Shown here: positions 28,315-61,626 of the stretch, in pieces
Numbering within the stretch: position 1 is the stretch's first letter
Layout of the letters: each line of letters begins with the position of its first letter
Assembly (NCBI RefSeq): GCF_010729665.1
Contig: NZ_AP022610.1
Location: 682,001-746,000, forward strand
Length of the DNA: 64,000 nucleotides
Origin: Mycolicibacterium madagascariense
GTDB lineage: Bacteria; Actinomycetota; Actinomycetes; Mycobacteriales; Mycobacteriaceae
Direction: 5' to 3'
Program-made: the position numbers and the translations under genes
The notes under the pieces: model-generated
Database searches by the model: none
The model's input: the letters and a program-made list of their open reading frames with translations, nothing else
Told to the model about the DNA's origin: nothing

Positions 28315-28512
28315 CGAAACACAGTGGCGCGCGCTGGGATGGCGATCCGCGGGGACTGCGCCTGACGGATACGTCAAATCGTCGGCCCGATCCTGAGGAC
28401 GATTCAAACGCTACGCACAGCCAAAACCTAGCTGGCAGAACGCTGTTCGATGACGGAGCCGCGGAGTGTCTGAGCCGCCGCCCCCGGGCACGGGGTTATC
28501 GTGGTGAGCGTC

Positions 28513-30336
28513 ATGAGCGATCCGTTGGGGTTGTCGATCGGGACGACCAACCTGGTCGCGGCCGTCGTCGGCAACCCACCCGTCACGCGGCGGTCCGTGC
28601 TGCCGCTTTCCGGGCAGACGTTCCGCGGCTTCGTCGACCGCGTCGGCGACCCGGTGCCCATGATCGCGGCCGACGGCTCGGCCTACCGCGCCGACGTCCT
28701 GATGGTCGAGGCGCTCGACGCCATGATCGTCGAGGCGCGCGGGGAGGACGCCGGGGCGACGGCACAGCTCGCCGTGGCGGTCCCCGCGCACTGGAACGGG
28801 GCCACGCTGCGCTCGCTGCGCGACGCGATGCGCGCCAAGACCAGCCTCGCCCCCAACGGCGTCCCTGCGCGGCTGATCTCCGACGCGGTGGCCTCGCTGA
28901 CGGCGCTGGCGACCAATCCCGGGTTGCCGAGTGACGGCGTCGTCGCCCTGCTCGACTTCGGCGGCGGCGGAACCACCCTGACCCTCGCCGACGCGGCCGC
29001 GTCCTTCGAGCCGATCGAGACGATCCGCATGACGGAGTTCTCCGGCGACCAGATCGACCAGGCCCTCGTGACGCACGTGCTCGAGAGTCTCACCACCGAC
29101 GTCGACCCGGCGGGTACGGCGTCGGTCGCGTCGCTCACCAGACTGCGCGAGGAGTGCAGGCAGGCCAAGGAGGAACTGTCCGAGGCGCAGGCCGCCGACG
29201 TCCGCGTCGAACTGCCCGGACACCGCTCGACGGTACGCGTCACGCGCGACGACCTGGACGGTCTGCTGGCCGAGCCCCTGGCGGCCGTGCTCGCCGAACT
29301 CGATGAATCGTTGGCGCGCAACAGGATTGCCAAGGATGACGTCTCCGCGGTGGTGGCCGTGGGTGGCGGCGCACGCATCCCGCTGGTGGCCAGCACGCTG
29401 TCCGAGTCCGACCGCAGGCCCTTCGTCACGACACCGCACCCCGCGCTCGACGCCGCCGTCGGCGCCGCCCTCTTCGCGGCCTACGGCGCCGATGCCGACG
29501 CGCAGACCGGCATGGCTCCCGTCCCCCTCCCGGGCGTCGGCGAGCCGACGGCCGCCAACGTGCTCACCGCCGCCAACGCCGCGGCGCCGGACTCGTCGAC
29601 GTTCCGCGCGCTGGCGTGGTCGCAGGACGACGACACCATCGGGGATCCCGCCCCCTATACGGGCGAGGACCCGTACGCCGACCCCTATGCCGACTCCAGC
29701 ACCACCCGGGTGGTCACCCAGTACCGGCCGCGGCAGGAGGAGCCCGAACCGCACACGTGGCAGCGCGTTCCGCTGTTGATCTTCGGGGTGGCCGCGGTGA
29801 TCGCGCTGATCGCGGTCGGCGGCGTGGCGATCGCACTGACCAGCTCGACCGAGGACACCACCCCGACGCCGAAGACGGCGCCCGTCACCGCCACCTCGCC
29901 ACCCGCGCCGCGACCGACCAGCCCGCAGCCACCGCCGCCGCCGCCGACCACCGCCGCGCCGCCACCCAGCGTCGCCCCCGTGACCAGCGAAGCACCACCT
30001 CCGCCGCCGCCTCCGCCCTCGACCGAGACGGTCACCGTCGAGCGTCCGGTGACCACGACCAAGACCACCACCCAGACCACGACGACCACCACGACGCAGC
30101 CGACCACGACGACGCCGACCACCACCGAGACCACGACGACCACCGAGACCACGACGTCGAGCACGCCGACCATGACCACCAGCTACATCACAGTCCCGTT
30201 CGTGCCGGTGCCAATACCCATCCAGGTTCCGGCGACCTCGACTCCGTACCAGCCCTATCAGCCTTATCAGCCAAACTCGCCGTATCAGCCCTACCAACCC
30301 CCCGCCTACCAGCAGCCGGGCCGATATCCGTACTGA
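28513..30336 (+). CDS. Membrane-anchored Hsp70/actin-fold protein with Pro/Thr-rich tail, Rv0312-like
   Basis: A 607-aa protein in three parts. Residues 1-330 are a truncated Hsp70-like ATPase domain with phosphate-1 loop LGLSIGTTNLVAAVVG, phosphate-2 VALLDFGGGGTTLTLADA and adenosine motif VVAVGGGARIPLVAS; there is no substrate-binding domain. A single membrane helix lies at 418-445. The outer tail of about 160 residues is Pro/Thr/Ser-rich (T-T-T runs, then YQPYQP repeats) and likely glycosylated. ATG 28513 is chosen over two GTGs just upstream; TATCGT at 28497 suggests a nearly leaderless mRNA. It is a paralogue of the gene at 53850-55712. The role is unknown; an envelope-linked ATP-binding scaffold is an inference. 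Confidence 0.82.
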   Translation: MSDPLGLSIGTTNLVAAVVGNPPVTRRSVLPLSGQTFRGFVDRVGDPVPMIAADGSAYRADVLMVEALDAMIVEARGEDAGATAQLAVAVPAHWNGATLRSLRDAMRAKTSLAPNGVPARLISDAVASLTALATNPGLPSDGVVALLDFGGGGTTLTLADAAASFEPIETIRMTEFSGDQIDQALVTHVLESLTTDVDPAGTASVASLTRLREECRQAKEELSEAQAADVRVELPGHRSTVRVTRDDLDGLLAEPLAAVLAELDESLARNRIAKDDVSAVVAVGGGARIPLVASTLSESDRRPFVTTPHPALDAAVGAALFAAYGADADAQTGMAPVPLPGVGEPTAANVLTAANAAAPDSSTFRALAWSQDDDTIGDPAPYTGEDPYADPYADSSTTRVVTQYRPRQEEPEPHTWQRVPLLIFGVAAVIALIAVGGVAIALTSSTEDTTPTPKTAPVTATSPPAPRPTSPQPPPPPPTTAAPPPSVAPVTSEAPPPPPPPPSTETVTVERPVTTTKTTTQTTTTTTTQPTTTTPTTTETTTTTETTTSSTPTMTTSYITVPFVPVPIPIQVPATSTPYQPYQPYQPNSPYQPYQPPAYQQPGRYPY

Positions 30337-51363: not shown

Positions 51364-53853
51364 TCACCCCGGGGGAGTCTCGAGAATCGCCCGCAGCATC
51401 GAGATCAGCTCCGATCGCGACTCCGCGCCGAGCCGGCGTCGAATGCGTGCCACGTGGTGCTCCACGGTCTTCGCTGAAATGAACAGCTGGCTGCCGATGT
51501 CGCGGTAGGGCAGACCCTGCAGCAGTAATTCGGCAACCTCGCGCTCGCGGTCGGACAGGCGCGCGGTCGACGCCGACGGACGCGCCTGCGCGGTGGCGGC
51601 CGGTGCCGGGAACGAGGTGGCCGACGTGGCCGACGGGGTCGCGCTGACGTCGACGGGGTCGGCGCTGGCGAACTTGAGGTCGCGGGCCAGCTGCAGCATG
51701 GCGCCCGAGGTCCGGCCGTCGGGGGTCTGCAGTGCCGCCTGACTGGCCAGCCGGGTGGCGTCCCAGGTCAGCCCGAACTGGACGAGCGCACGCGCGGCCG
51801 CGGCCACCTCGTCGGCGTCGACGTGGTTGGCGAGCACCCGCAGCCACGTGCGGCCCGCGTTGGCGAGCGCCCTGGCGAACGGACTGTGCGCGGCGGCCGC
51901 CGTCAGCGCCTGGCCGTGCGGCGCCACCGCGCTCGGTGCGCTCGACAGGATGCCCGCGTGGACCCCCGCCCAGTGCAGCGGGATCGCCCACAGCGACGGA
52001 TCACCCAGTGCGGCAAGCAGATTGAAGGCCTCGTCGAGGGCGGGCCGGACGAGGTCGACCTGGCCCAGCCGCGCGGCGGCCACCCACAGCTCGCCGAGCG
52101 GAAGCAGGGCGTAGAGGTCGACCGAGTACTCGGTGAGCACCTCCATCGCGGCGTGCCAGTGCTTGTGGACCGCGCCGCTGTCGCCGGCCCGTCGGGCGAT
52201 CGCCGTCTGCAGGGCGGCCGCCCACAGGGCGTCGCGGCGGTGCAGCGGCGCACCGGATGCCGCGGCGACGTCGGCGGCCGCCGCGGTCAACTGGCCGTCG
52301 AGCATGCGCACCCAGCCGTGCAGCAGCGCGTGCCGTGCAGCGGTGAAACCCAGGTCCGGGCCGGTGTCGTGGACCGCCCGGCCCAGGACGCTGCGGGCGC
52401 GCACGGAGTCGCCACCGTGCAGGGCCACCAGCGCAACGAGCGCCGGGGCGCTGTCCGGCGTGACGATGGCCGCCGCCTGTGCCGACGTCGACTGCGCGAG
52501 CCGGGCGACGGCGGCGGGGTAGGTGCCGTCGACGGTCATCAGCAACCCGTCGGCGAGACCGCGGGCGGCACGCGCGCTCGACGTCGGAGGACCGGAGGCG
52601 TCGACGGCCAGCGCGGCCCGTGCCGTCGGGGCGTCCCCGACCCCGAGCGCCGCGACGACGGCGGCGGCTCCCACGACGGCATCGGGGTAGGCCCCCAGCC
52701 AGCGGAACAGCTCGGCCGCCTGCACGGCACTCCCGTCGTGCATGGCCACGCTCGCCGCGATGCGCACCGCGGCCGCTCGTTCGGCGGCCAGCTCCGAGCC
52801 CAGCAGCTGGTCGGCGAGCCGTCCGGCCGTCGCGCAGTCGCCGGTCAGCGCGAGGGCGTCGGCGAGGGAGGAGCCGGCCCCGTCGGCGCCCATCTCCCCG
52901 GCGGCCCGGTAGAGACGGGCGGCCAGCGCGGGACGGGTGCGGTGGCGGGCCGCCAGGTCGGCGAGCGCGTCGGCGAGTCGCGCGTCGCGCAGGCCGTGCT
53001 CGGCCAGCTGCAGGGCGAGGTCCATCGACAGCGTCGACCTGTCCCATTGCGTGTGCAGCAGCGCCGTTTCGAGGCGATGGTGGCGCGCGGCCCCGGCGAG
53101 CTGCGCGACGCCGCGGTGCAGCGCGGCCGCGAACGTCGCACTGTGTCCGGGGGCGATCAAGCCGCTGGCCCTGGCGACGTCGACCAACCGCTGCGCCTCG
53201 CCGTGGTCGACGTCGAGCGCCGCGGCGACGTCGTCGGGGCCGAGATCCTGGCTCAGCGAGGTCACCAGCAGCGTGTCGAGCACGGGCTCCTCGACCCGTC
53301 GCAGGCGCTCGACGAGGGCGACGCGCGTGGCCGCCTCGATCCCGTCGGGCCCGGACGCCAGGCCCGACACGGCGGCGTCGACCAGGAACGGCAGGCCGGC
53401 GGTGGCCACCAGCACCGCGTGGAGCGTCTCGGCGGGTGGCGCGGCGCCGAGGGCGTCCAGCGCGCGCCGGTGCACGTCGGCGGCGGTGAGCGGGCCGAGC
53501 GTGATGGGCGGCGCTTCTCGGGCCAGGGCCGCCCGCAACGAGGTGAGCGAGGGATCGTGCAGTCGCGGTTCGGCGGCGATCACGACGGTTCTGGCCGGGT
53601 CCGCGACCAGCTCCGTCAACCGATCGACGTCCGGCGCGGGCAGTAGGTGGGCGTCGTCGACGACGACCGCCGCATCGGGGGGATCCTCACTCCGCGGCGG
53701 GCGCGCGAGCACGGTGCGTCCCGCTGCGCGCAGCGCCGTCCTGACCTCGACGAGCAGCGCGGTCTTTCCCGTGCCGACACCACCTGACACCAGCATCTTG
53801 GCGGGCTCGGCCGGTGCCGTCGACCACGCCGTCGCTGCGTCGGGGGTGATCAC
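51364..53853 (-). CDS. iniR: IniR-type STAND ATPase / LuxR transcriptional regulator (Rv0339c-like)
   Basis: An 829-aa MalT-like regulator. Walker A SGGVGTGKTALLV is at 23-35, Walker B AVVVDDAHLLPAPDVDRL near 70, then a NACHT-type winged region and a long helical repeat array. The C-terminal LuxR helix-turn-helix (LSDREREVAELLLQGLPYRD, then SAKTVEHHVARIRRRLGA) is at about 760-825. In M. tuberculosis, IniR (Rv0339c, 832 aa) activates iniBAC under cell-wall stress in response to trehalose (published). GTG 53853 overlaps the stop of the Hsp70-like gene (GTGA). The longer open frame upstream is a shadow of that gene. Confidence 0.9.
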   Translation of the reverse strand: MITPDAATAWSTAPAEPAKMLVSGGVGTGKTALLVEVRTALRAAGRTVLARPPRSEDPPDAAVVVDDAHLLPAPDVDRLTELVADPARTVVIAAEPRLHDPSLTSLRAALAREAPPITLGPLTAADVHRRALDALGAAPPAETLHAVLVATAGLPFLVDAAVSGLASGPDGIEAATRVALVERLRRVEEPVLDTLLVTSLSQDLGPDDVAAALDVDHGEAQRLVDVARASGLIAPGHSATFAAALHRGVAQLAGAARHHRLETALLHTQWDRSTLSMDLALQLAEHGLRDARLADALADLAARHRTRPALAARLYRAAGEMGADGAGSSLADALALTGDCATAGRLADQLLGSELAAERAAAVRIAASVAMHDGSAVQAAELFRWLGAYPDAVVGAAAVVAALGVGDAPTARAALAVDASGPPTSSARAARGLADGLLMTVDGTYPAAVARLAQSTSAQAAAIVTPDSAPALVALVALHGGDSVRARSVLGRAVHDTGPDLGFTAARHALLHGWVRMLDGQLTAAAADVAAASGAPLHRRDALWAAALQTAIARRAGDSGAVHKHWHAAMEVLTEYSVDLYALLPLGELWVAAARLGQVDLVRPALDEAFNLLAALGDPSLWAIPLHWAGVHAGILSSAPSAVAPHGQALTAAAAHSPFARALANAGRTWLRVLANHVDADEVAAAARALVQFGLTWDATRLASQAALQTPDGRTSGAMLQLARDLKFASADPVDVSATPSATSATSFPAPAATAQARPSASTARLSDREREVAELLLQGLPYRDIGSQLFISAKTVEHHVARIRRRLGAESRSELISMLRAILETPPG

Positions 53854-55712
53854 GAATTCGGCGGCACCACCGACGTGGGCGCGGACGCCTGCGAGCTGGG
53901 CGGCCGGGTCACCGGTGCCTCCGTCGTGGTGACGGGCGGTCTCGTCGTGGTGACGGGAGGAGCGGTCGTGGTGGTCGGCCGTGTGGTGGTGGGTGGCGTC
54001 GTCGTCGTGGGTGGCGTCGTCGTCGTGGGCGGTGTCGTGGTGGTGGTGGTCGTCGTGGTGGTGGTCGTGGTGGTCGTCGTGGTGGTCGACGACGTCGTGC
54101 TGGACGTCGTGTCGCTCGTCGACTCGGTGGTGCTCGAACCCGACGTCGGGGACTGGGACGCCGACGACGAACTCTGCGGCCCATTGCTGGCGGAGGACGG
54201 CGTCTCGGTCTTGGTGGACAGGCTGGTGGTCACCAGGCCGTTGGCTCCGGTCGAGGAGATCGTGACGACCTCGGTCACCGTGCCGCTGTTGGTGGAGTTG
54301 CCCGTCAGCGTCACGGCGAGGCCGCCGATCGCCAGGAGTGCGGCCGCGGCGGCGGCGCCGAACAGGATGGGCGGGCGTTTGTACCAGGGCAGCACCGCCG
54401 CCTCGTCGGGGAACTCGTCCTCCTCGTCGTGGGCGAAGGCCATCTCGGGCCGCGCGCCGGAGTACTCGGACTGGTACTCCCCGCCGGCGTAGGGGAGCGG
54501 TTCGCCCGACGGAGCGTCGTCGTCCTGGGACCACGCCAGGGCGCCGGCCGCCTCGGTGGGCGGGGCCTCGACGGGAGGCGCACCGGCCACCCATCCCATG
54601 GTGGGCGCCAAGCCCGTCGGCGCATCGGCGACGGGGGCCAGACCCGTCGGAGCCAAGCCGGTGCGGGCGTCGTCGTAGCCGCCGAGCGCGACGACGGCGG
54701 CACCCGCGGCGATCGTCAGCGCGGGCACCGGTGCCGTCACGACGGGCACCCGGAACCGTTCGGAGAGTCGCTGCGTCACCAGGGGGATCGCGGCGCCGCC
54801 GCCGACGGTGGCCACCGCGGACACGCTCGCCGGCGCAATGCCGTAGCGCTGCACGGCTTCCGACACCGCCGACAGCAGACCGGCCAGCGGTTGCTCGATG
54901 AGCCGTTCGAGTTCCTGCCGGGTGATCCGCACGTCGGAGGAGTAGCCCGGCAATTGGGCCGAGAGGACGGTGGAGGTGTCCGACGACAGGCGTTCCTTCG
55001 CGTCGCGGCACTCGGCCCGCAGCCGGGTCAGCGAGCCGACCGCGGCCGTGCTCGCGGTATCGGCCGGGTTGGCGTCCGCGATGCCCGCGACGACGTGGTT
55101 CAGCAGGGCCTGGTCGACCAGGTCGCCGGAGAAGTCCGGATAGCGCGTCGTGCTGCCGATGACGGCCAGGCCGGCGGCGGCATCGGCCAGGGTGATGCTC
55201 GTGCCCCCGCCGCCGACGTCGCAGAGCACGACGACGCCGGCGTCGGGCAGGCCCGGCGACGACCGCAGCCCGGCGAGCGCGGCGACGGAGTCGGGCACCA
55301 GCGTGGCGGGAATCCCGCCTGGGCTCAGAATTGGCTTGGCGCGCAGGGCATTTCGCAGTGCGCCGACGACTCCCGGACCCCAGTGGGACGGCACCGCGAT
55401 CGTGACGGGGGCGCCCCCACCCACGATGCGGGCCATCACGTCGAGGGCCTCGACGAGGACGGTCTCGCCGCGGTGCGACGACCCGTCCGCGGCGACCAGG
55501 GGCACCGGGTCGCCGACGCGTTCGACGAACCCCGCCAAGACCAGGCCGGGCTGGTTCGGTCCGGGGAAGGTCCCGACCTCGGGCGCGCGGTCGGGGTAGA
55601 CCGTCAGCACCGAGCGCCGGGTGACGGGCGCAGCCCCGCCGCGGGTGGCCACCAGGTTGGTGGTGCCGACGGACATCCCGAGTGGTTCAGTCGTGGCCAG
55701 TGGTTCGGTCAT
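53850..55712 (-). CDS. Membrane-anchored Hsp70/actin-fold protein coupled to iniR, poly-Thr tail
   Basis: A 620-aa paralogue of the 28513 product. The ATPase-like domain at 1-340 has LGMSVGTTNLVATRGG (phosphate 1), VVVLCDVGGGGTSITLADAA (phosphate 2) and VATVGGGAAIPLVTQRL (adenosine). The substrate-binding half of Hsp70 is missing. A membrane helix lies at about 445-467. The outer tail of about 150 residues is Ser/Thr-rich with an unbroken Thr run and TTTPPTTTTPP repeats, probably O-mannosylated. ATG 55712. The stop overlaps the iniR start. H37Rv has no such gene directly upstream of Rv0339c as I recall, so this looks like an added partner in the IniR unit. Confidence 0.85.
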   Translation of the reverse strand: MTEPLATTEPLGMSVGTTNLVATRGGAAPVTRRSVLTVYPDRAPEVGTFPGPNQPGLVLAGFVERVGDPVPLVAADGSSHRGETVLVEALDVMARIVGGGAPVTIAVPSHWGPGVVGALRNALRAKPILSPGGIPATLVPDSVAALAGLRSSPGLPDAGVVVLCDVGGGGTSITLADAAAGLAVIGSTTRYPDFSGDLVDQALLNHVVAGIADANPADTASTAAVGSLTRLRAECRDAKERLSSDTSTVLSAQLPGYSSDVRITRQELERLIEQPLAGLLSAVSEAVQRYGIAPASVSAVATVGGGAAIPLVTQRLSERFRVPVVTAPVPALTIAAGAAVVALGGYDDARTGLAPTGLAPVADAPTGLAPTMGWVAGAPPVEAPPTEAAGALAWSQDDDAPSGEPLPYAGGEYQSEYSGARPEMAFAHDEEDEFPDEAAVLPWYKRPPILFGAAAAAALLAIGGLAVTLTGNSTNSGTVTEVVTISSTGANGLVTTSLSTKTETPSSASNGPQSSSSASQSPTSGSSTTESTSDTTSSTTSSTTTTTTTTTTTTTTTTTTPPTTTTPPTTTTPPTTTRPTTTTAPPVTTTRPPVTTTEAPVTRPPSSQASAPTSVVPPNS

Positions 55713-55788: not shown

Positions 55789-55827
55789 CCCCTAGTGGTG
55801 TCGAGCCCCTAATGGCCGATCCCCTAA
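55789..55827. promoter_or_regulatory. Three CCCCTA boxes upstream of the IniB-domain gene
   Basis: CCCCTAG (55789), CCCCTAA (55806) and CCCCTAA (55821) lie in direct orientation, within the 217-bp divergent region between the Hsp70-like/iniR unit and the IniB-domain gene. The last box is 55 bp upstream of a TAGCAT -10 (55882-55887). The direct-repeat layout is like MalT boxes. Together with the matching set upstream of iniB these are the best candidate IniR sites. Confidence 0.6.
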
Positions 55828-55929
55828 CGCCCTGTTGGCACGGGTGGCTTCACCACCGATCCCAGCGACGCGATACGCCGATAGCATTCGGTGCAGACAG
55901 TCGGCGCAACGCCGGGAAGGGGGCGGCTC

Positions 55930-56478
55930 GTGGCGAACTCGCTGTTGGACTTCGTGATGTCGCTGGTGCGCGATCCCGACGCCGCTGCCCAGTATGCGGC
56001 CAATCCCGCGCAGGCCATCGCCGACGCCCACCTGACCGACGTGACGAGTGCGGACGTCAACCACCTCATCCCGGTGGTGGCGGAATCGATGTCGACGGTC
56101 GTGCCGTCCGCGGCGGCGGGCAGCGCGCTCGACGACGCGCACAACGTCTGGGCGAGCGGCGCGGCGACGGCGGCCTTCGACGCGTTCGACGACCATCTGC
56201 CCCTGCGCGGCGCCGACGTCGTCGCAGCTCACGTGCCCACGGTCGCGACCGTGATCCAGCCGCCCGCGGACGCCGCGCCGACCGTCGTCGACCATGGTTT
56301 CGATGCCTTCGACGACCTGCGCGAGGTCAGTGCGGTGAGTCCGTCGGACCACGCGCTGGCCTACGACGTGCCCGTGATCGACGATGGGCACGTCACCGAT
56401 GCCGGCCCGGTGGACGACGTGCACCACGGCGTCGTCGACGACCATCCGCAGGACCCCGGTTTCGACATCTTCGCGTGA
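55930..56478 (+). CDS. IniB N-terminal domain protein (Rv0340-like)
   Basis: A 182-aa acidic protein. Residues 1-65 form the IniB N-terminal domain (NSLLDFVMSLVRDPDAAAQY, then the VTSADVNHLIPVVAES helix), the same helical module as in IniB. The rest is Asp/Val/His-rich and probably extended. There is no signal peptide. GTG 55930 follows GGGAAGGGGG. It has its own promoter and box set, and a terminator (56500-56530) separates it from iniB. It is the counterpart of Rv0340 (179 aa), which is co-regulated with iniBAC. Confidence 0.85.
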   Translation: MANSLLDFVMSLVRDPDAAAQYAANPAQAIADAHLTDVTSADVNHLIPVVAESMSTVVPSAAAGSALDDAHNVWASGAATAAFDAFDDHLPLRGADVVAAHVPTVATVIQPPADAAPTVVDHGFDAFDDLREVSAVSPSDHALAYDVPVIDDGHVTDAGPVDDVHHGVVDDHPQDPGFDIFA

Positions 56479-56564: not shown

Positions 56565-56592
56565 CCCCTAACCCCCTAACGGACGCCCCTAG
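56565..56592. promoter_or_regulatory. Three CCCCTA boxes upstream of iniB
   Basis: CCCCTAA (56565), CCCCTAA (56573) and CCCCTAG (56586) are direct repeats, followed by weaker copies (ATCCCTCAA at 56596, GATCCCCAC at 56606). A TAACGT -10-like element is at 56659-56664 with no recognisable -35, as expected for an activator-dependent promoter. The last strong box is 121 bp before the iniB ATG; the equivalent distance upstream of the IniB-domain gene is 109 bp. Confidence 0.6.
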
Positions 56593-56706: not shown

Positions 56707-57747
56707 ATGACGAACCTCATCGACTACATCCTCGACCTGTTCCGCGACCCGGGCGTGGCGGCCACGTTCGTCAGGGACCCCGACGGGGCCCTGCGCGACG
56801 CCGGCCTGCCGAACGTGAGCGCAGCTCAGCTGCAGGCCGTCGCCGCCAGCGCCGCCCCCGCCGGCGTGTTCCTCGGCGACGGCGACCCGGTGTACGGATT
56901 GCAGACGGCAGTCGCGAACTACCACAGCATCCCGGCCGCGTTCTCGCCGCAGACGGCCTTCTCCCCGCAGACCGACTTCGCCAGCAACAACGCCACCGAG
57001 GTCGCCAGCAACAACGACGTCATGAGCCCGAACCAGTCGGCCGGGGCCAACGCCCAGAACGGCGCGTTCAACCTCGGCTTCGGCGACATCACGTTCGGCG
57101 ACAAGACGAGCAACACCGCCACCAACGGCGGCGTCGTGAACACCGGCAGCGCCGGCCACATCGACACCACCAGCGTCAACGGTGACGGAAACGTCGTCGG
57201 CCACGACAACAACGCCAACACCGGGGTCATCTCCGCGGGTAGCCACTCGCCGATCACCGTGGGCGAGGGCAACCAGACCCACGTGAGCGACAGCTCGCAG
57301 CACTCCGGCGGCGACATCATCGATGGCAACCAAGGCACCGTCATCAAGGACAACGACATGTCCGGCGGGCACGGCGGCGGCGCGAGCGCGAGCGGCGGCA
57401 GCAGCCTCCTCGGCATCGGCACCGGTGGCAACGACGCCCACGCGGGCAGCGGCGGTCAGGGTGGCTCGATCATCGTGACCGACAACGGCAACCACTCGAA
57501 CACGTCCACGACGGCCGTCGGTGGCAACCAGACCACGGTCGGTCACGACCTGGGCAGTGGCAACACCTCGACCGTCGACTCCTCCACCCACACCGCCTCG
57601 ACGGTGCACGAGGACAACACGTTCGAGCAGGACAACTCCACCCACACCGACAGCTCGGTGCACAGCGACACGTCGTTCTCGCAGGAGAACTCGCTGCACC
57701 AGTCGGTCGACACCCACGTCCAGCCTGACACGCACATCGGTTTCTGA
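56707..57747 (+). CDS. iniB: IniB, isoniazid-inducible protein
   Basis: A 346-aa protein. The N-terminal IniB module is at 1-60 (MTNLIDYILDLFRDPGVAAT, then SAAQLQAVAASAAPAG). From 75 on it is an Asn/Gly/Ser/Thr-rich low-complexity chain, with a 60-residue tail repeating Thr/Ser-His-Thr/Ser units (STHTASTVHEDNT, STHTDSSVHSD). H37Rv IniB is longer (479 aa) and more Gly/Ala-rich. There is no signal peptide. Transcription of iniBAC is induced by isoniazid, ethambutol and other wall inhibitors in other mycobacteria. iniA follows after 74 bp. Confidence 0.88.
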   Translation: MTNLIDYILDLFRDPGVAATFVRDPDGALRDAGLPNVSAAQLQAVAASAAPAGVFLGDGDPVYGLQTAVANYHSIPAAFSPQTAFSPQTDFASNNATEVASNNDVMSPNQSAGANAQNGAFNLGFGDITFGDKTSNTATNGGVVNTGSAGHIDTTSVNGDGNVVGHDNNANTGVISAGSHSPITVGEGNQTHVSDSSQHSGGDIIDGNQGTVIKDNDMSGGHGGGASASGGSSLLGIGTGGNDAHAGSGGQGGSIIVTDNGNHSNTSTTAVGGNQTTVGHDLGSGNTSTVDSSTHTASTVHEDNTFEQDNSTHTDSSVHSDTSFSQENSLHQSVDTHVQPDTHIGF

Positions 57748-57821
57748 CGCACCGCGACTGGCGGGGCTCCTTCCGGCGCCCCGCCGGTCCGCGCGTCTAC
57801 CGTGAGGTGAGGAGAAATCAC

Positions 57822-59663
57822 ATGACGCCCCCGAACGACCCACGGCCGGTCACGGTCATCGTCGAGCTGATCGACCACACCGTCAGGATCGCCGGGGACT
57901 ACGACCGCGGCGATCTGGTCGAGCGGCTGTCGAGGGCGAAGCAGCGCATCGGTGACCCGCAGATCCGGGTGGTCATCGCGGGCCAGCTCAAGCAGGGCAA
58001 GAGCCAGCTGCTCAATTCCCTGCTCAACGTGCCGGTCGCGCGCGTGGGGGACGACGAGACCACGACGTTGGCGACGGTGGTGTCCTACGGCGAGCAGCCG
58101 TCGGCGCGGCTCATCGTGGCCCGCGGCGACGGTGCCGAGCCGGAGGCGGTCGAGATCCCGATCGCCGAGGTCCGCAACGATCTGCGCCGCGCGCCGCAGG
58201 CCGGCGGTCGCGAGGTGCTGCGCGTCGAGGTCACCGCGCCCAGTCCGCTGCTGCGCAACGGGCTGGCATTCGTCGACACCCCCGGCGTCGGCGGGCACGG
58301 CCAGCCGCACCTGTCCGCGACCCTCGGCCTGCTGCCGGACGCCGACGCGATGCTCATGGTCACCGACGCGAGCCAGGAATTCACCGAGCCGGAGCTGACG
58401 TTCCTGCGCCAGGCCATCGAAATCTGCCCGCTGGCAACGGTTCTCGTCACGAAGACCGATCTGTACCCGCACTGGCGCGAGATCGTGGCCGCGGACGAGG
58501 CGCACCTGCGTCGCGCCGGCATCGACGTGCCGGTCGTCCCGGTCTCGTCGGTCCTGCGCAGCCACGCCATCCAGATGAACGACCAGGAGCTCAACGCAGA
58601 GTCCAACTTTCCGGCCATCGTCGCCTTCCTCGGGGACCGGGTGCTGGGCCGCGAGAACGACCGGATCCAGGATGAGGTGCTCGCCGAAGTGCGTTCGGCC
58701 GCAGAGCATCTCACGCTCACCATCGAGACCGAACTGGCGTCCATCAATGACCCCGAGGCCCGGGACGCCCTCAACGCCGAGCTCGAGCGGCGCAAGCAGG
58801 AGGCCCAGGATGCGTTGCAGCACACGGCGCTGTGGCAGCAGGTGCTCAACGACGGCATCGCCGACCTGACCGCCGACGTCGACCACGACATGCGCGCCCG
58901 GTTCCGTGCGATCACCCAGCACACCGAGCGCCGCATCGATGGCTGCGATCCGACGCAGCACTGGGCCGAAATCGGCACCGAGCTGGAGAATGCGGTCGCC
59001 ACGGCCGTCGGGGACAACTTCGTGTGGGCCTACCGCCGCGCCGAGGCCCTGGCGCAGGAGGTGGGCCGCACCTTCGCCGAGGCCGGGCTCGACGCCGTCG
59101 AGATGCCGCAGCTGAATGCCCGCGAGATGGGTGCGGGCTTCGGTGACATGAAGTCCCTCGGTCGGCTCGAGGCCAACCCGATTGGCAAGGGGCACAAGGT
59201 CGTCACCGGGATGCGCGGCTCCTACGGCGGCGTGCTGATGTTCGGCATGCTCACCTCGTTCGCGGGCCTCGGCATGTTCAACCCGCTGTCGCTCGGCGCG
59301 GGTCTGGTCCTCGGCCGCAAGGCCTATCGGGAGGACATGGAGAACCGCATGCTGCGGGTGCGCAACGAGGCCAAGACCAACGTGCGGCGATTCGTCGACG
59401 ACGTGTCCTTCGTCGTCGGCAAGGAGTCTCGCGACCGGCTCAAGGGCGTACAGCGCCAACTGCGCGACCACTACCGCGACATCGCGAATCAGACGACCCG
59501 CTCGCTCAACGAATCCCTGCAGGCGTCGCTCAACGCCGCCAAGATGGAGATGGACGAGCGCGACGCCAGGGTGCGCGAGCTGCAACGTCGCCTCGACATC
59601 CTGCGGCAGGTCACCGAGCACGCCGTCAAGATGTCAGCGCGATCGGAAACCGTCACCGCGTAG
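57822..59663 (+). CDS. iniA: IniA, dynamin-like GTPase
   Basis: A 613-aa bacterial dynamin-like protein. G1 is VVIAGQLKQGKSQLLNSLLN near residue 50, G2 the Thr run in GDDETTTLATVV, G3 FVDTPGVGGHG and G4 VLVTKTDLYPHW. A helical stalk follows, with a hydrophobic membrane-contact segment MRGSYGGVLMFGMLTSFAGL and GMFNPLSLGAGLVLG near 470-500, and a coiled-coil end. The published structure of M. smegmatis IniA shows GTP-dependent membrane fission. ATG 57822 follows GGAGA. H37Rv IniA has 640 aa. Confidence 0.94.
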   Translation: MTPPNDPRPVTVIVELIDHTVRIAGDYDRGDLVERLSRAKQRIGDPQIRVVIAGQLKQGKSQLLNSLLNVPVARVGDDETTTLATVVSYGEQPSARLIVARGDGAEPEAVEIPIAEVRNDLRRAPQAGGREVLRVEVTAPSPLLRNGLAFVDTPGVGGHGQPHLSATLGLLPDADAMLMVTDASQEFTEPELTFLRQAIEICPLATVLVTKTDLYPHWREIVAADEAHLRRAGIDVPVVPVSSVLRSHAIQMNDQELNAESNFPAIVAFLGDRVLGRENDRIQDEVLAEVRSAAEHLTLTIETELASINDPEARDALNAELERRKQEAQDALQHTALWQQVLNDGIADLTADVDHDMRARFRAITQHTERRIDGCDPTQHWAEIGTELENAVATAVGDNFVWAYRRAEALAQEVGRTFAEAGLDAVEMPQLNAREMGAGFGDMKSLGRLEANPIGKGHKVVTGMRGSYGGVLMFGMLTSFAGLGMFNPLSLGAGLVLGRKAYREDMENRMLRVRNEAKTNVRRFVDDVSFVVGKESRDRLKGVQRQLRDHYRDIANQTTRSLNESLQASLNAAKMEMDERDARVRELQRRLDILRQVTEHAVKMSARSETVTA

Positions 59664-59702: not shown

Positions 59703-61190
59703 ATGAGCACGAGCGACCGGGTGCGGGCAATCCTCGGCGGCACCGTCGCCGCCTACCGCAGCGACCCGGTCTACGCCCAGCGTCAGGACGTCCTGCACGA
59801 GCTCGACCGGATCGGCCGACAACTCAACCAGCCCATCCGCATCGCGCTGGCGGGCACGCTCAAGGCGGGCAAGTCCACGCTGGTCAACGCGCTGGTCGGG
59901 GAGGACATCGCGCCGACCGACGCCACCGAGGCCACCCGCATCGTGACGTGGTTCCGCAACGGCGCCACCCCGCGGGTGACGGCCAACCACCGCGGCGGGC
60001 GAAGGACCAACGTCCCCATCACCCGCGCGCACGGCGGACTCACCTTCGACTTCGCCAGCCTCGACCCGCAGGACGTGCTCGATCTCGACGTCGAATGGCC
60101 CGCAGCCGAACTCGCCGACGCCACGATCATCGACACCCCCGGCACCTCGTCGCTGAACCGCGACGTCTCCGAGCGCACGCTGCGCCTGCTGGTGCCCGAG
60201 GACGGGGTGCCCCGCGTCGACGCGGTGGTGTTCCTGCTGCGCACGCTCAACGCCGCCGACATCGCCCTGCTCGAGCAGATCGGCACGCTGGTCGGCGGGG
60301 CGTCGGGTGCGCTCGGCGTCATCGGGGTCGCGTCGCGCGCCGACGAGATCGGGGCGGGCCGCATCGATGCGATGTTGTCCGCCAAGGACGTGGCGGCGCG
60401 GTTCACCGCCGAGATGGACAGGACGGGCATCTGCCAGGCGGTGGTGCCGGTGTCCGGACTGCTCGCGCTGACGGCGCGCACGCTGCGGCAGAGCGAGTTC
60501 GTCGCGCTGGAGAAACTCGCTGCCGTCGACGCGGCCGACCTCGCCAAGGCCATGCTGAGCGTCGACCGCTTCGTGCGGGAGGATGCGGCGCTGCCCGTGG
60601 ACGCCGCCACCAGATCGGCTCTGCTGGAACGGTTCGGCATGTTCGGCATCCGCATCTCGATCGCGGTGCTGCGGGCCGGCGTCGGGGACTCGGTGGGTCT
60701 GGCCGACGAACTCCTCGAGCGCAGTGGGCTGGTCGCCCTGCGCGACGTCATCGATCAGCAGTTCGCGCAGCGGTCCGATCTGCTGAAGGCCCACACCGCG
60801 CTGCTGTCGCTGCGACGGGTCGTGGAGGCCAACCCCATCTACGCGACGCCCTTCATCGTCGCCGACATCGACCCGCTGCTCGCCGACACCCACGCGTTCG
60901 AAGAACTCCGGCTGCTGAGTCAATTGCGTTCGCGCCCAACGACGTTGACCGAGGACGAGATGGCGTCGCTGAGGCGCATCATCGGGGGGTCGGGCACCGA
61001 TGCGGCCAGCCGGCTCGGCTTGCAGCCCGACGCGCCGTACGACGGCCCGCGCGCGGCGTTCTCGGCCGCCCAGCGCTGGCGACGCCGCGCGGACCATCCG
61101 CTCAACGATCCGTTCACCACCAGGGCGTGCCGGGCGGCCGTGCGCAGTGCCGAGGCGATGGTGGCCGACTTCGCCGCGCAGGGCCGCTGA
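59703..61190 (+). CDS. iniC: IniC, dynamin-like GTPase
   Basis: A 495-aa GTPase of the IniA/IniC pair. G1 is IALAGTLKAGKSTLVNALVG near residue 50, G2 TDATEATRIV, G3 IIDTPGTSSLNRD and a G4-like VGVASRADEIGAG. The helical C-terminal half lacks a clear membrane helix. ATG 59703 is 39 bp after the iniA stop; TAAGCT at 59686 could give a weak internal promoter. H37Rv IniC has 493 aa. Its 3' end is 1 bp from the convergent Thr-rich membrane protein. Confidence 0.93.
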   Translation: MSTSDRVRAILGGTVAAYRSDPVYAQRQDVLHELDRIGRQLNQPIRIALAGTLKAGKSTLVNALVGEDIAPTDATEATRIVTWFRNGATPRVTANHRGGRRTNVPITRAHGGLTFDFASLDPQDVLDLDVEWPAAELADATIIDTPGTSSLNRDVSERTLRLLVPEDGVPRVDAVVFLLRTLNAADIALLEQIGTLVGGASGALGVIGVASRADEIGAGRIDAMLSAKDVAARFTAEMDRTGICQAVVPVSGLLALTARTLRQSEFVALEKLAAVDAADLAKAMLSVDRFVREDAALPVDAATRSALLERFGMFGIRISIAVLRAGVGDSVGLADELLERSGLVALRDVIDQQFAQRSDLLKAHTALLSLRRVVEANPIYATPFIVADIDPLLADTHAFEELRLLSQLRSRPTTLTEDEMASLRRIIGGSGTDAASRLGLQPDAPYDGPRAAFSAAQRWRRRADHPLNDPFTTRACRAAVRSAEAMVADFAAQGR

Positions 61191-61191
61191 G

Positions 61192-61626
61192 CTACGGATG
61201 CGGGTACAGGGTGCGAGTCTCGTTGTACCGCGGCCGGGTACGGCCGTCGTCGTAGGTCGTCGGCGACTTGGTGTGCGGCAGGTTGGACGGGTTGAACGAC
61301 GTCGTCGTGTCCGTGCTCGGTGAGGTCCCCGACGTCGTCGTGGCGCTGGTGTCGCCGGGGTTGATGTCGGAGGTCATCGGCGGGCTGGTGCTGGTGATCG
61401 TCTCGGTGCTCGTGGCGGTCGTCGTGGTCGTGGTGCCCGAGTCACTGGACTGCACGGAGTACTGCGGCGTCGGTGGCGGCGGCGCGTCCGACCCGCTCGT
61501 CACGTAGGAGATGGCGAACCACAGCAGCGCGATGACCGCGAGTGCGCCCGCGCTGGCGCCGACGACGGTCGAGGTGCGTTCGTGCCATGCGGGTTCGCCG
61601 GTCCCCGAGTCGTCGTCACCCGCCAC
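61192..61626 (-). CDS. Single-pass membrane protein with Thr-rich tail (at the lpqJ position)
   Basis: A 144-aa protein: 20 hydrophilic residues, one helix (TVVGASAGALAVIALLWFAI), then an outer Thr/Ser/Pro-rich tail of about 100 residues. H37Rv has the lipoprotein gene lpqJ (Rv0344c) at this place in the same orientation, but there is no lipobox Cys here; instead the N-terminus acts as an anchor. GTG 61626 start. It may be a replaced or diverged form. Function unknown. Its tail resembles those of the products at 37265 and 53850. Confidence 0.7.
   Translation of the reverse strand: MAGDDDSGTGEPAWHERTSTVVGASAGALAVIALLWFAISYVTSGSDAPPPPTPQYSVQSSDSGTTTTTTATSTETITSTSPPMTSDINPGDTSATTTSGTSPSTDTTTSFNPSNLPHTKSPTTYDDGRTRPRYNETRTLYPHP

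Follow-up and report, generated by a model that had tools for sequence, protein, structure and literature searches.

From the comparisons made here, it was concluded that the Hsp70-like gene lying directly upstream of iniR, hereafter H70, probably belongs to the ini envelope-stress system as a component overlooked so far, since the two genes were kept together in many related bacteria. It was further proposed, tentatively, that H70 is the upstream, signal-side half of this system and controls IniR, a reading that we regard as plausible, though short of probable. According to the accessible text of Boot et al. 2017 (PMC5760070), IniR is the dedicated activator of iniBAC, with trehalose as an inducer, and it acts in M. 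marinum and M. tuberculosis.

The pair was found in the window, that is, the whole analysed stretch of DNA (64,000 nucleotides). The features of the locus were as follows:

51364 to 53853, minus strand: iniR, an 829-aa STAND ATPase/LuxR-type activator with a GTG start (NF038181 equivalog; GerE helix-turn-helix at residues 765-819).
53850 to 55712, minus strand: H70, the Hsp70-like gene, a 620-aa open reading frame with a partial Pfam HSP70 match, kept upstream of iniR.
53850 to 53853, minus strand: GTGA stop/start overlap of H70 and iniR, read from the sequence.
54678 to 55712, minus strand: nucleotide-binding domain of H70, residues 1-345.
54309 to 54368, minus strand: membrane helix of H70, residues 449-468 (a helix in the AlphaFold2 model, a hydropathy peak in relatives).
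53853 to 54308, minus strand: Thr-rich tail of H70, residues 469-620 (Thr fraction determined in 48 relatives), presumed to lie outside by the positive-inside rule.
55789 to 55827, plus strand: three CCCCTAR boxes toward iniB* (55789, 55806, 55821), a candidate IniR operator.
55930 to 56478, plus strand: iniB*, of the Rv0340 family and related to IniB, with a predicted start (NF038176, 191.3 bits; model position 1 falls on residue 14 of the open reading frame 55891-56478).
56565 to 56592, plus strand: three CCCCTAR boxes toward iniB (56565, 56573, 56586), a candidate IniR operator.
56707 to 57747, plus strand: iniB (IniB N-terminal domain NF038175, 66.7 bits).
57807 to 59663, plus strand: iniA, dynamin-like (Dynamin_N, 66.5 bits).
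59703 to 61190, plus strand: iniC, dynamin-like (Dynamin_N, 40.4 bits).

The GTG start of iniR (53853-53851) and the TGA stop of H70 (53852-53850) were read directly as sharing bases in GTGA, as the preliminary description had stated for the 620-aa gene and iniR. The encoded IniR reached 1233.9 bits against NCBIfam NF038181 (curated equivalog cut-off 750) and was a full member of that family. The iniR gene adjoined iniB*-iniBAC in the opposite direction, a short intergenic stretch separating H70-iniR from iniB*, iniB, iniA and iniC, which were transcribed away. A homologue of Rv0338c, named EtfD in the published work consulted, lay behind iniR. Two further genes of the window were recorded. 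One, on the minus strand at 61192-61626 and convergent with iniC, encoded a small protein, rich in Ser and Thr, for which one membrane helix is likely and no family match exceeded the cut-off. The other, on the plus strand at 28501-30336, was a second H70-family gene built alike (domain, helix, Thr/Pro tail), with ~49% identity over the domain; it carried no CCCCTAR box and, by an inferred name, was possibly the counterpart of Rv0312.

A gene of the H70 type beside iniR is already in print for M. smegmatis. One sentence of Boot et al. 2017 (PMC5760070) gave, as a species difference, a dnaK-like gene 'directly downstream of iniR', which implied that the gene is absent beside iniR in M. marinum and M. 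tuberculosis; the accessible text proposed neither conservation nor function nor an IniR link for it. No other description of the H70-iniR pair was found in the literature covered, which was judged partly by titles. From gene numbers, we infer that the M. smegmatis gene beside iniR is MSMEG_0692, since MSMEG_0690 and MSMEG_0691 are given, in the published material consulted, as EtfD and a putative transcriptional regulator, respectively. Like H70, MSMEG_0692 was described with one transmembrane helix and ATP binding; it was also reported to be Pro/Thr-rich, to have Rv0312 as its M. tuberculosis ortholog and to be among 25 proteins (FhaA included) exclusive to cross-linked complexes of over-expressed FhaA (PMC11898655). 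In the accessible part of that report, the same list held MSMEG_0736 and MSMEG_5308 (trehalose monomycolate transport), CwsA and MviN, and the complex table did not contain IniR (PMC11898655).

The nucleotide-binding domain of H70 had the Hsp70 fold. Pfam HSP70 (PF00012) matched residues 157-342 alone, the match stopping at profile position 372 of 599, and AlphaFold2 gave a confident fold for residues ~10-345, then a disordered linker (residues 352-441 mostly disordered) and a single helix at 449-468. By both the Pfam extent and the model, no substrate-binding domain followed the nucleotide-binding domain and, unlike in DnaK, a membrane helix stood in its place. A chaperone role was not supported, since the substrate domain was absent. 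Ssz1 of the ribosome-associated complex was among the closest known systems compared; it is eukaryotic, soluble and ribosome-bound, with a truncated substrate domain, and differs from H70 in these respects.

The catalytic set of DnaK was taken to be Asp8, Lys70, Glu171, Asp194, Thr199 and Asp201, in the numbering assumed for that protein. In H70, Ser14, Gly170 and Ser172 stood in place of Asp8, Thr199 and Asp201, and no Lys was present at the Lys70 site; Asp194 was kept (Asp165) and the Glu171 site was still acidic (Asp141). Because several catalytic residues were replaced, H70 probably binds ATP and hydrolyses it poorly. Among the aligned relatives, the Asp8 site was Asp in 3 of 60 and the Asp201 site was Asp in 30 of 63, while all 63 were acidic at the Glu171 site; by the latter two counts, some relatives may hydrolyse ATP.

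The protein had been described initially as a membrane ATPase with a glycosylated outer stalk acting as a sensor. A membrane helix was indicated by the single modelled helix at residues 449-468 and a hydropathy peak at a similar position in 48 relatives, mostly after KRP/RRP. The ATPase part became doubtful for the reasons given above. The stalk as the sensor was also weakened. The tail was Thr-rich in the genus (Thr fraction 0.35-0.51 in the 48 relatives), but not beyond it: Thr made up 6-23% of the tail in 17 H70 proteins of other genera, and the tail was ~20 aa long in two other-family loci. A membrane helix was not seen in at least four of the eight other-family proteins, which counts against the mechanism proposed below. 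This survey of helix and tail did not include L050, with its 815-aa frame, or L058 and L067, for which no full frame was obtained.

Further, the gene order upstream of iniR was compared. IniR was matched in 81 of the 118 genomes of the genus survey, and 75 regions were read (74 genomes and the window), leaving aside another six whose matches were short or lay at contig ends. H70 and iniR shared a strand, with H70 directly 5', in 52 of the 75; H70 was absent there in 21, including G088 with a degraded iniR, and was undecidable at contig ends in 2. A single-protein scan of genome contigs gave one locus, that of M. palustre (L037, a separate collection), also without H70 upstream of iniR. Outside the genus, an IniR relative (E<=1e-50) was recorded in 94 of 186 genomes of the family and H70 (E<=1e-15) in 102, among the matches listed; on the same basis, both were present in 92, IniR alone in 2, H70 alone in 10 and neither in 82. 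The two were thus jointly present or jointly absent in 174 of 186 genomes (92 + 82, matches listed), which counts in favour of a control of IniR by H70. A Fisher value for this association disregards relatedness and carries no weight here. H70 lay directly upstream of the IniR relative, on the same strand, in at least 84 of the 94 genomes; in five of the other ten (G164, G204, G211, G250, G282) IniR was at most ~1.1 kb from the upstream end of the contig. Adjacency was observed in at least 16 genera besides that of the window (hand count of genus labels). At the order level (121 genomes), IniR (E<=1e-30) was detected in 18 genomes outside the family, with H70 adjacent in at least 8; G402 begins at a contig end, and 9 had no adjacent H70 among the matches listed. 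IniR proteins outside the genus fell below the NF038181 equivalog cut-off and are therefore named relatives. The adjacency at all three levels is a second point for H70-IniR control.

In 63 of 69 loci, a candidate iniR start fell between -40 and +60 relative to the H70 stop, and in 7 it was at -3 (four-base overlap), the nearest candidate start being used, so that the values are biased to close spacing and describe spacing, not translation. The claim of a conserved coupled pair was upheld to this extent. Since the same order, strand and close spacing recurred within the genus, across the family and in further families of the order, a chance adjacency, confined to the window genome, was rejected. 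The layout was read from 20 loci of other genera, picked around H70 matches, and 8 other-family loci, picked for adjacency, and hence describes arrangement rather than frequency. H70 was followed by IniR in 17 of the 20, and in all 17 a divergent IniA lay beyond H70; in 8 of 8 other-family loci the dynamin genes ran in one direction and H70-iniR in the opposite one. The usual layout is iniC-iniA-iniB-iniB* divergent from H70-iniR. The remaining three loci were L188, which ends before the iniR position, and L179 and L184, where a second, divergent iniA-iniC-like dynamin pair had its own H70 and one box toward the dynamin genes, without iniR.

In a tree of 91 IniR proteins (without L105-L107, whose iniR was degraded or cut), the 21 rows without upstream H70 (20 genus genomes and M. 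palustre) formed one clade (SH-aLRT 99) nested among H70-bearing rows; hence, one change among the sampled rows was deduced, the tree being unable to show losses outside the genus. That the uncoupled rows are one clade also counts for H70-IniR control. H37Rv, which presumably has no H70 directly upstream of iniR, would fit this clade. In a tree of 131 nucleotide-binding domains, 49 of the 52 upstream-of-iniR rows grouped, with moderate support (SH-aLRT 86), with two other H70 sets, one beyond iniC in the uncoupled clade (11 rows) and one near Rv0338c in iniR-less genomes (10 rows, 8 genomes). It therefore seems that H70 was moved instead of lost in part of the uncoupled clade. Both trees were quick searches with SH-aLRT support only and long-branch warnings. 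Changes in IniR matching the loss of the pair were not borne out: the uncoupled clade had 5 shifted columns, which is not remarkable beside the 1-3 seen in five smaller control clades (L099 and L104 were left out of this comparison besides L105-L107).

No iniR match was obtained in 37 genus genomes, 33 of which were searched (four less complete ones were left out). At least one H70 was kept in 31 of the 33. IniA (E<=1e-40) was found in none of them, in a search set that held no known IniA-positive genome and by a different program than was used for the iniR-bearing loci. In the searched genomes, iniR and iniA go together, and H70 can outlast both. Of the 12 iniR-less genomes with regions read, 8 had Rv0338c preceded by a codirectional H70, the domain lying ~1 kb (L130, L133, L140, L143, L146, L147), 3.8 kb (L164) or 5.7 kb (L128) away; the other four had no Rv0338c nearby.

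The CCCCTAR repeats were proposed as a candidate operator of IniR. All 52 coupled and all 20 uncoupled genus loci had at least one box in the 220 bases 5' of iniB*, and 49 and 20 of them, respectively, had at least two. For iniB, a box was present in 48 of 51 coupled and 19 of 19 uncoupled loci, and at least two boxes in 41 and 18. Under mononucleotide shuffling, ~2.9 of 52 iniB* stretches acquired a box. In other genera the counts were 12 of 17 for iniB* and 9 of 12 for iniB (two or more in 7 and 5), and 7 of 8 other-family loci had at least one box, all directed to the dynamin side. The boxes were directed to iniB* in 72 of 72 and to iniB in 67 of 70 genus loci, one iniB stretch having a reversed box. 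None was found upstream of iniA, iniC or Rv0338c in the surveyed loci, the stretches before iniA and iniC being weak controls, as they are mostly operon-internal. All six CCCCTAR of the window lay in the two ini arrays, a count not unusual by itself (chance 3.43, sd 1.93), and the paired-box pattern occurred at 6 places genome-wide (reversed control: 5), of which 4, overlapping one another, belonged to the two ini arrays and 2 lay outside them. The case for the boxes therefore comes from clustering, orientation and conservation. MalT boxes are likewise tandem direct-repeat operators. No IniR box or motif was found in the literature covered; early promoter work (Alland 2000) was outside it, so the repeat may be reported already. 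The accessible text of Boot et al. 2017 (PMC5760070), searched for motif terms, gave no operator and placed a ChIP peak directly in front of iniBAC.

The H70-iniR operon as an IniR target was not supported, as the promoter-region boxes faced away from it in 52 of 52 genus loci, an orientation not decisive alone. The boxes facing iniB* and iniB, H70 was concluded to be encoded on the regulator side.

Other copies of H70 bear on its role. By hand count, 103 of the 118 genus genomes had at least two family members, and the window genome had three, two of them away from ini genes; in three distant genomes, the upstream-of-iniR H70 grouped with a copy that one of the three carries at another place. 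An extra H70 was present just downstream of iniR in 10 rows (L042, L045-L048, L051, L055, L056, L108, L109), with a forward box in 9 of them. No box was found at 29 unlinked copies or upstream of H70 near Rv0338c in iniR-less genomes (10 rows, 8 genomes). The box thus follows IniR, some H70 copies look like IniR targets, and its absence in the iniR-less rows counts for H70-IniR control. In addition, 19 rows had a codirectional H70 downstream of iniC, and 17 of these formed a single clade (98); this H70 began 14-114 bases past iniC in 17 of 18 measured loci; in L150 a copy lay beside a second iniB-iniA.

These copies lend weight to another explanation, which we consider unlikely, though a serious one: H70 would be an effector working with the dynamins IniA and IniC (e.g. 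by loading, gating or disassembling these dynamins at the membrane), made with IniR only so as to pre-exist induction. The other-clade paralogues close behind iniC, the boxed copies directly 3' of iniR, the H70 beside second dynamin pairs without iniR (L179, L184) and the copy in L150 all agree with it, and paralogues behind iniC or under their own boxes fit an effector equally well. However, the usual layout places H70 on the regulator side, outside iniBAC, with the boxes facing away, and H70 was kept in iniR-less genus genomes where IniA was not found (31 of 33 searched). Control of IniR and work with the dynamins may both hold.

It was considered less likely still, and rather improbable, that H70 is a scaffold of polar envelope growth in the FhaA/CwsA neighbourhood, linked to iniR by shared timing and without direct action on IniR or the dynamins. 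The place of MSMEG_0692 in the FhaA interactome, alongside MviN, CwsA and factors of trehalose-monomycolate transport (PMC11898655, accessible part), the presence of two or more family members in most genus genomes, with two of the window genome's three lying off the ini genes, and the survival of the family after iniR loss agree with a scaffold, but the adjacent, codirectional H70-iniR in several families of the order would be left unexplained. Inherited synteny without function, to which the separability of the pair and the survival of both genes would be suited, was judged very improbable, because the pair was kept in other genera with H70 only ~31-43% identical and other H70 paralogues repeatedly arrived at ini genes.

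The spread of the pair and its regulator-side place favour the first proposal, i.e. that H70 sets the activity of IniR. A single operon, presumably as one transcript, would couple the amounts of H70 and of the activator IniR. An anchor would hold H70 in the plasma membrane, close to the machinery of polar envelope building, its cytosolic nucleotide-binding domain holding ATP with poor or no hydrolysis. H70 would bind IniR and set its threshold, much as MalT, a related STAND activator, is held back by the maltose transporter of Escherichia coli. IniR might then be released or primed when the envelope state or the nucleotide charge changes and, with trehalose, would bind the CCCCTAR repeats and turn on iniB* and iniBAC. 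MalK is an ABC ATPase, unlike H70 with its Hsp70 fold. The MalT analogy, made by the IniR authors themselves (PMC5760070), the link between iniBAC induction and the ATP level in M. bovis BCG (PMC6104191) and the occurrence of MSMEG_0692 with trehalose-monomycolate transport factors in FhaA complexes (PMC11898655) count for H70-IniR control, as far as these sources were accessible.

Several results count against an obligate partnership. The studied IniR proteins, unlike the window member of the same family, come from M. marinum and M. tuberculosis, where IniR is active apparently without an adjacent H70, and H70 orthologues persist near Rv0338c after iniR loss. M. bovis BCG, which we take to belong to the same group of species apparently without the adjacent gene, is where the ATP link was measured, and this link therefore cannot rest on an adjacent H70. 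Control of IniR is also disfavoured by its lack in the FhaA table, in the part accessible, and by the uncoupled-clade IniR without marked change. As IniR is active in species apparently without the pair, activation does not strictly require H70; the role of a brake or threshold-setter suits this better than that of an essential receptor.

A wider form of the proposal is possible and was held with slightly more reserve: an order-wide two-part device, in which a pseudo-enzymatic, usually membrane-anchored Hsp70 domain would gate a STAND activator according to the nucleotide charge or the state of the envelope, both governing a dynamin-based membrane repair module via CCCCTAR arrays, the species of the characterised IniR appearing to fall in the one genus clade with the gate uncoupled. 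For the sensing by iniBAC of cell-wall damage from isoniazid, ethambutol and related drugs, trehalose and the ATP level are implicated, and the cited work, in its accessible parts, names no proven receptor. H70 is a concrete candidate, being a conserved ATP-site protein encoded with the regulator and placed by others near trehalose-monomycolate export factors, and the analysis also supplies CCCCTAR as a candidate IniR operator. In the best-studied species the ini system may be a derived form and, if the two-part device is true, half of the sensor would so far have gone unstudied.
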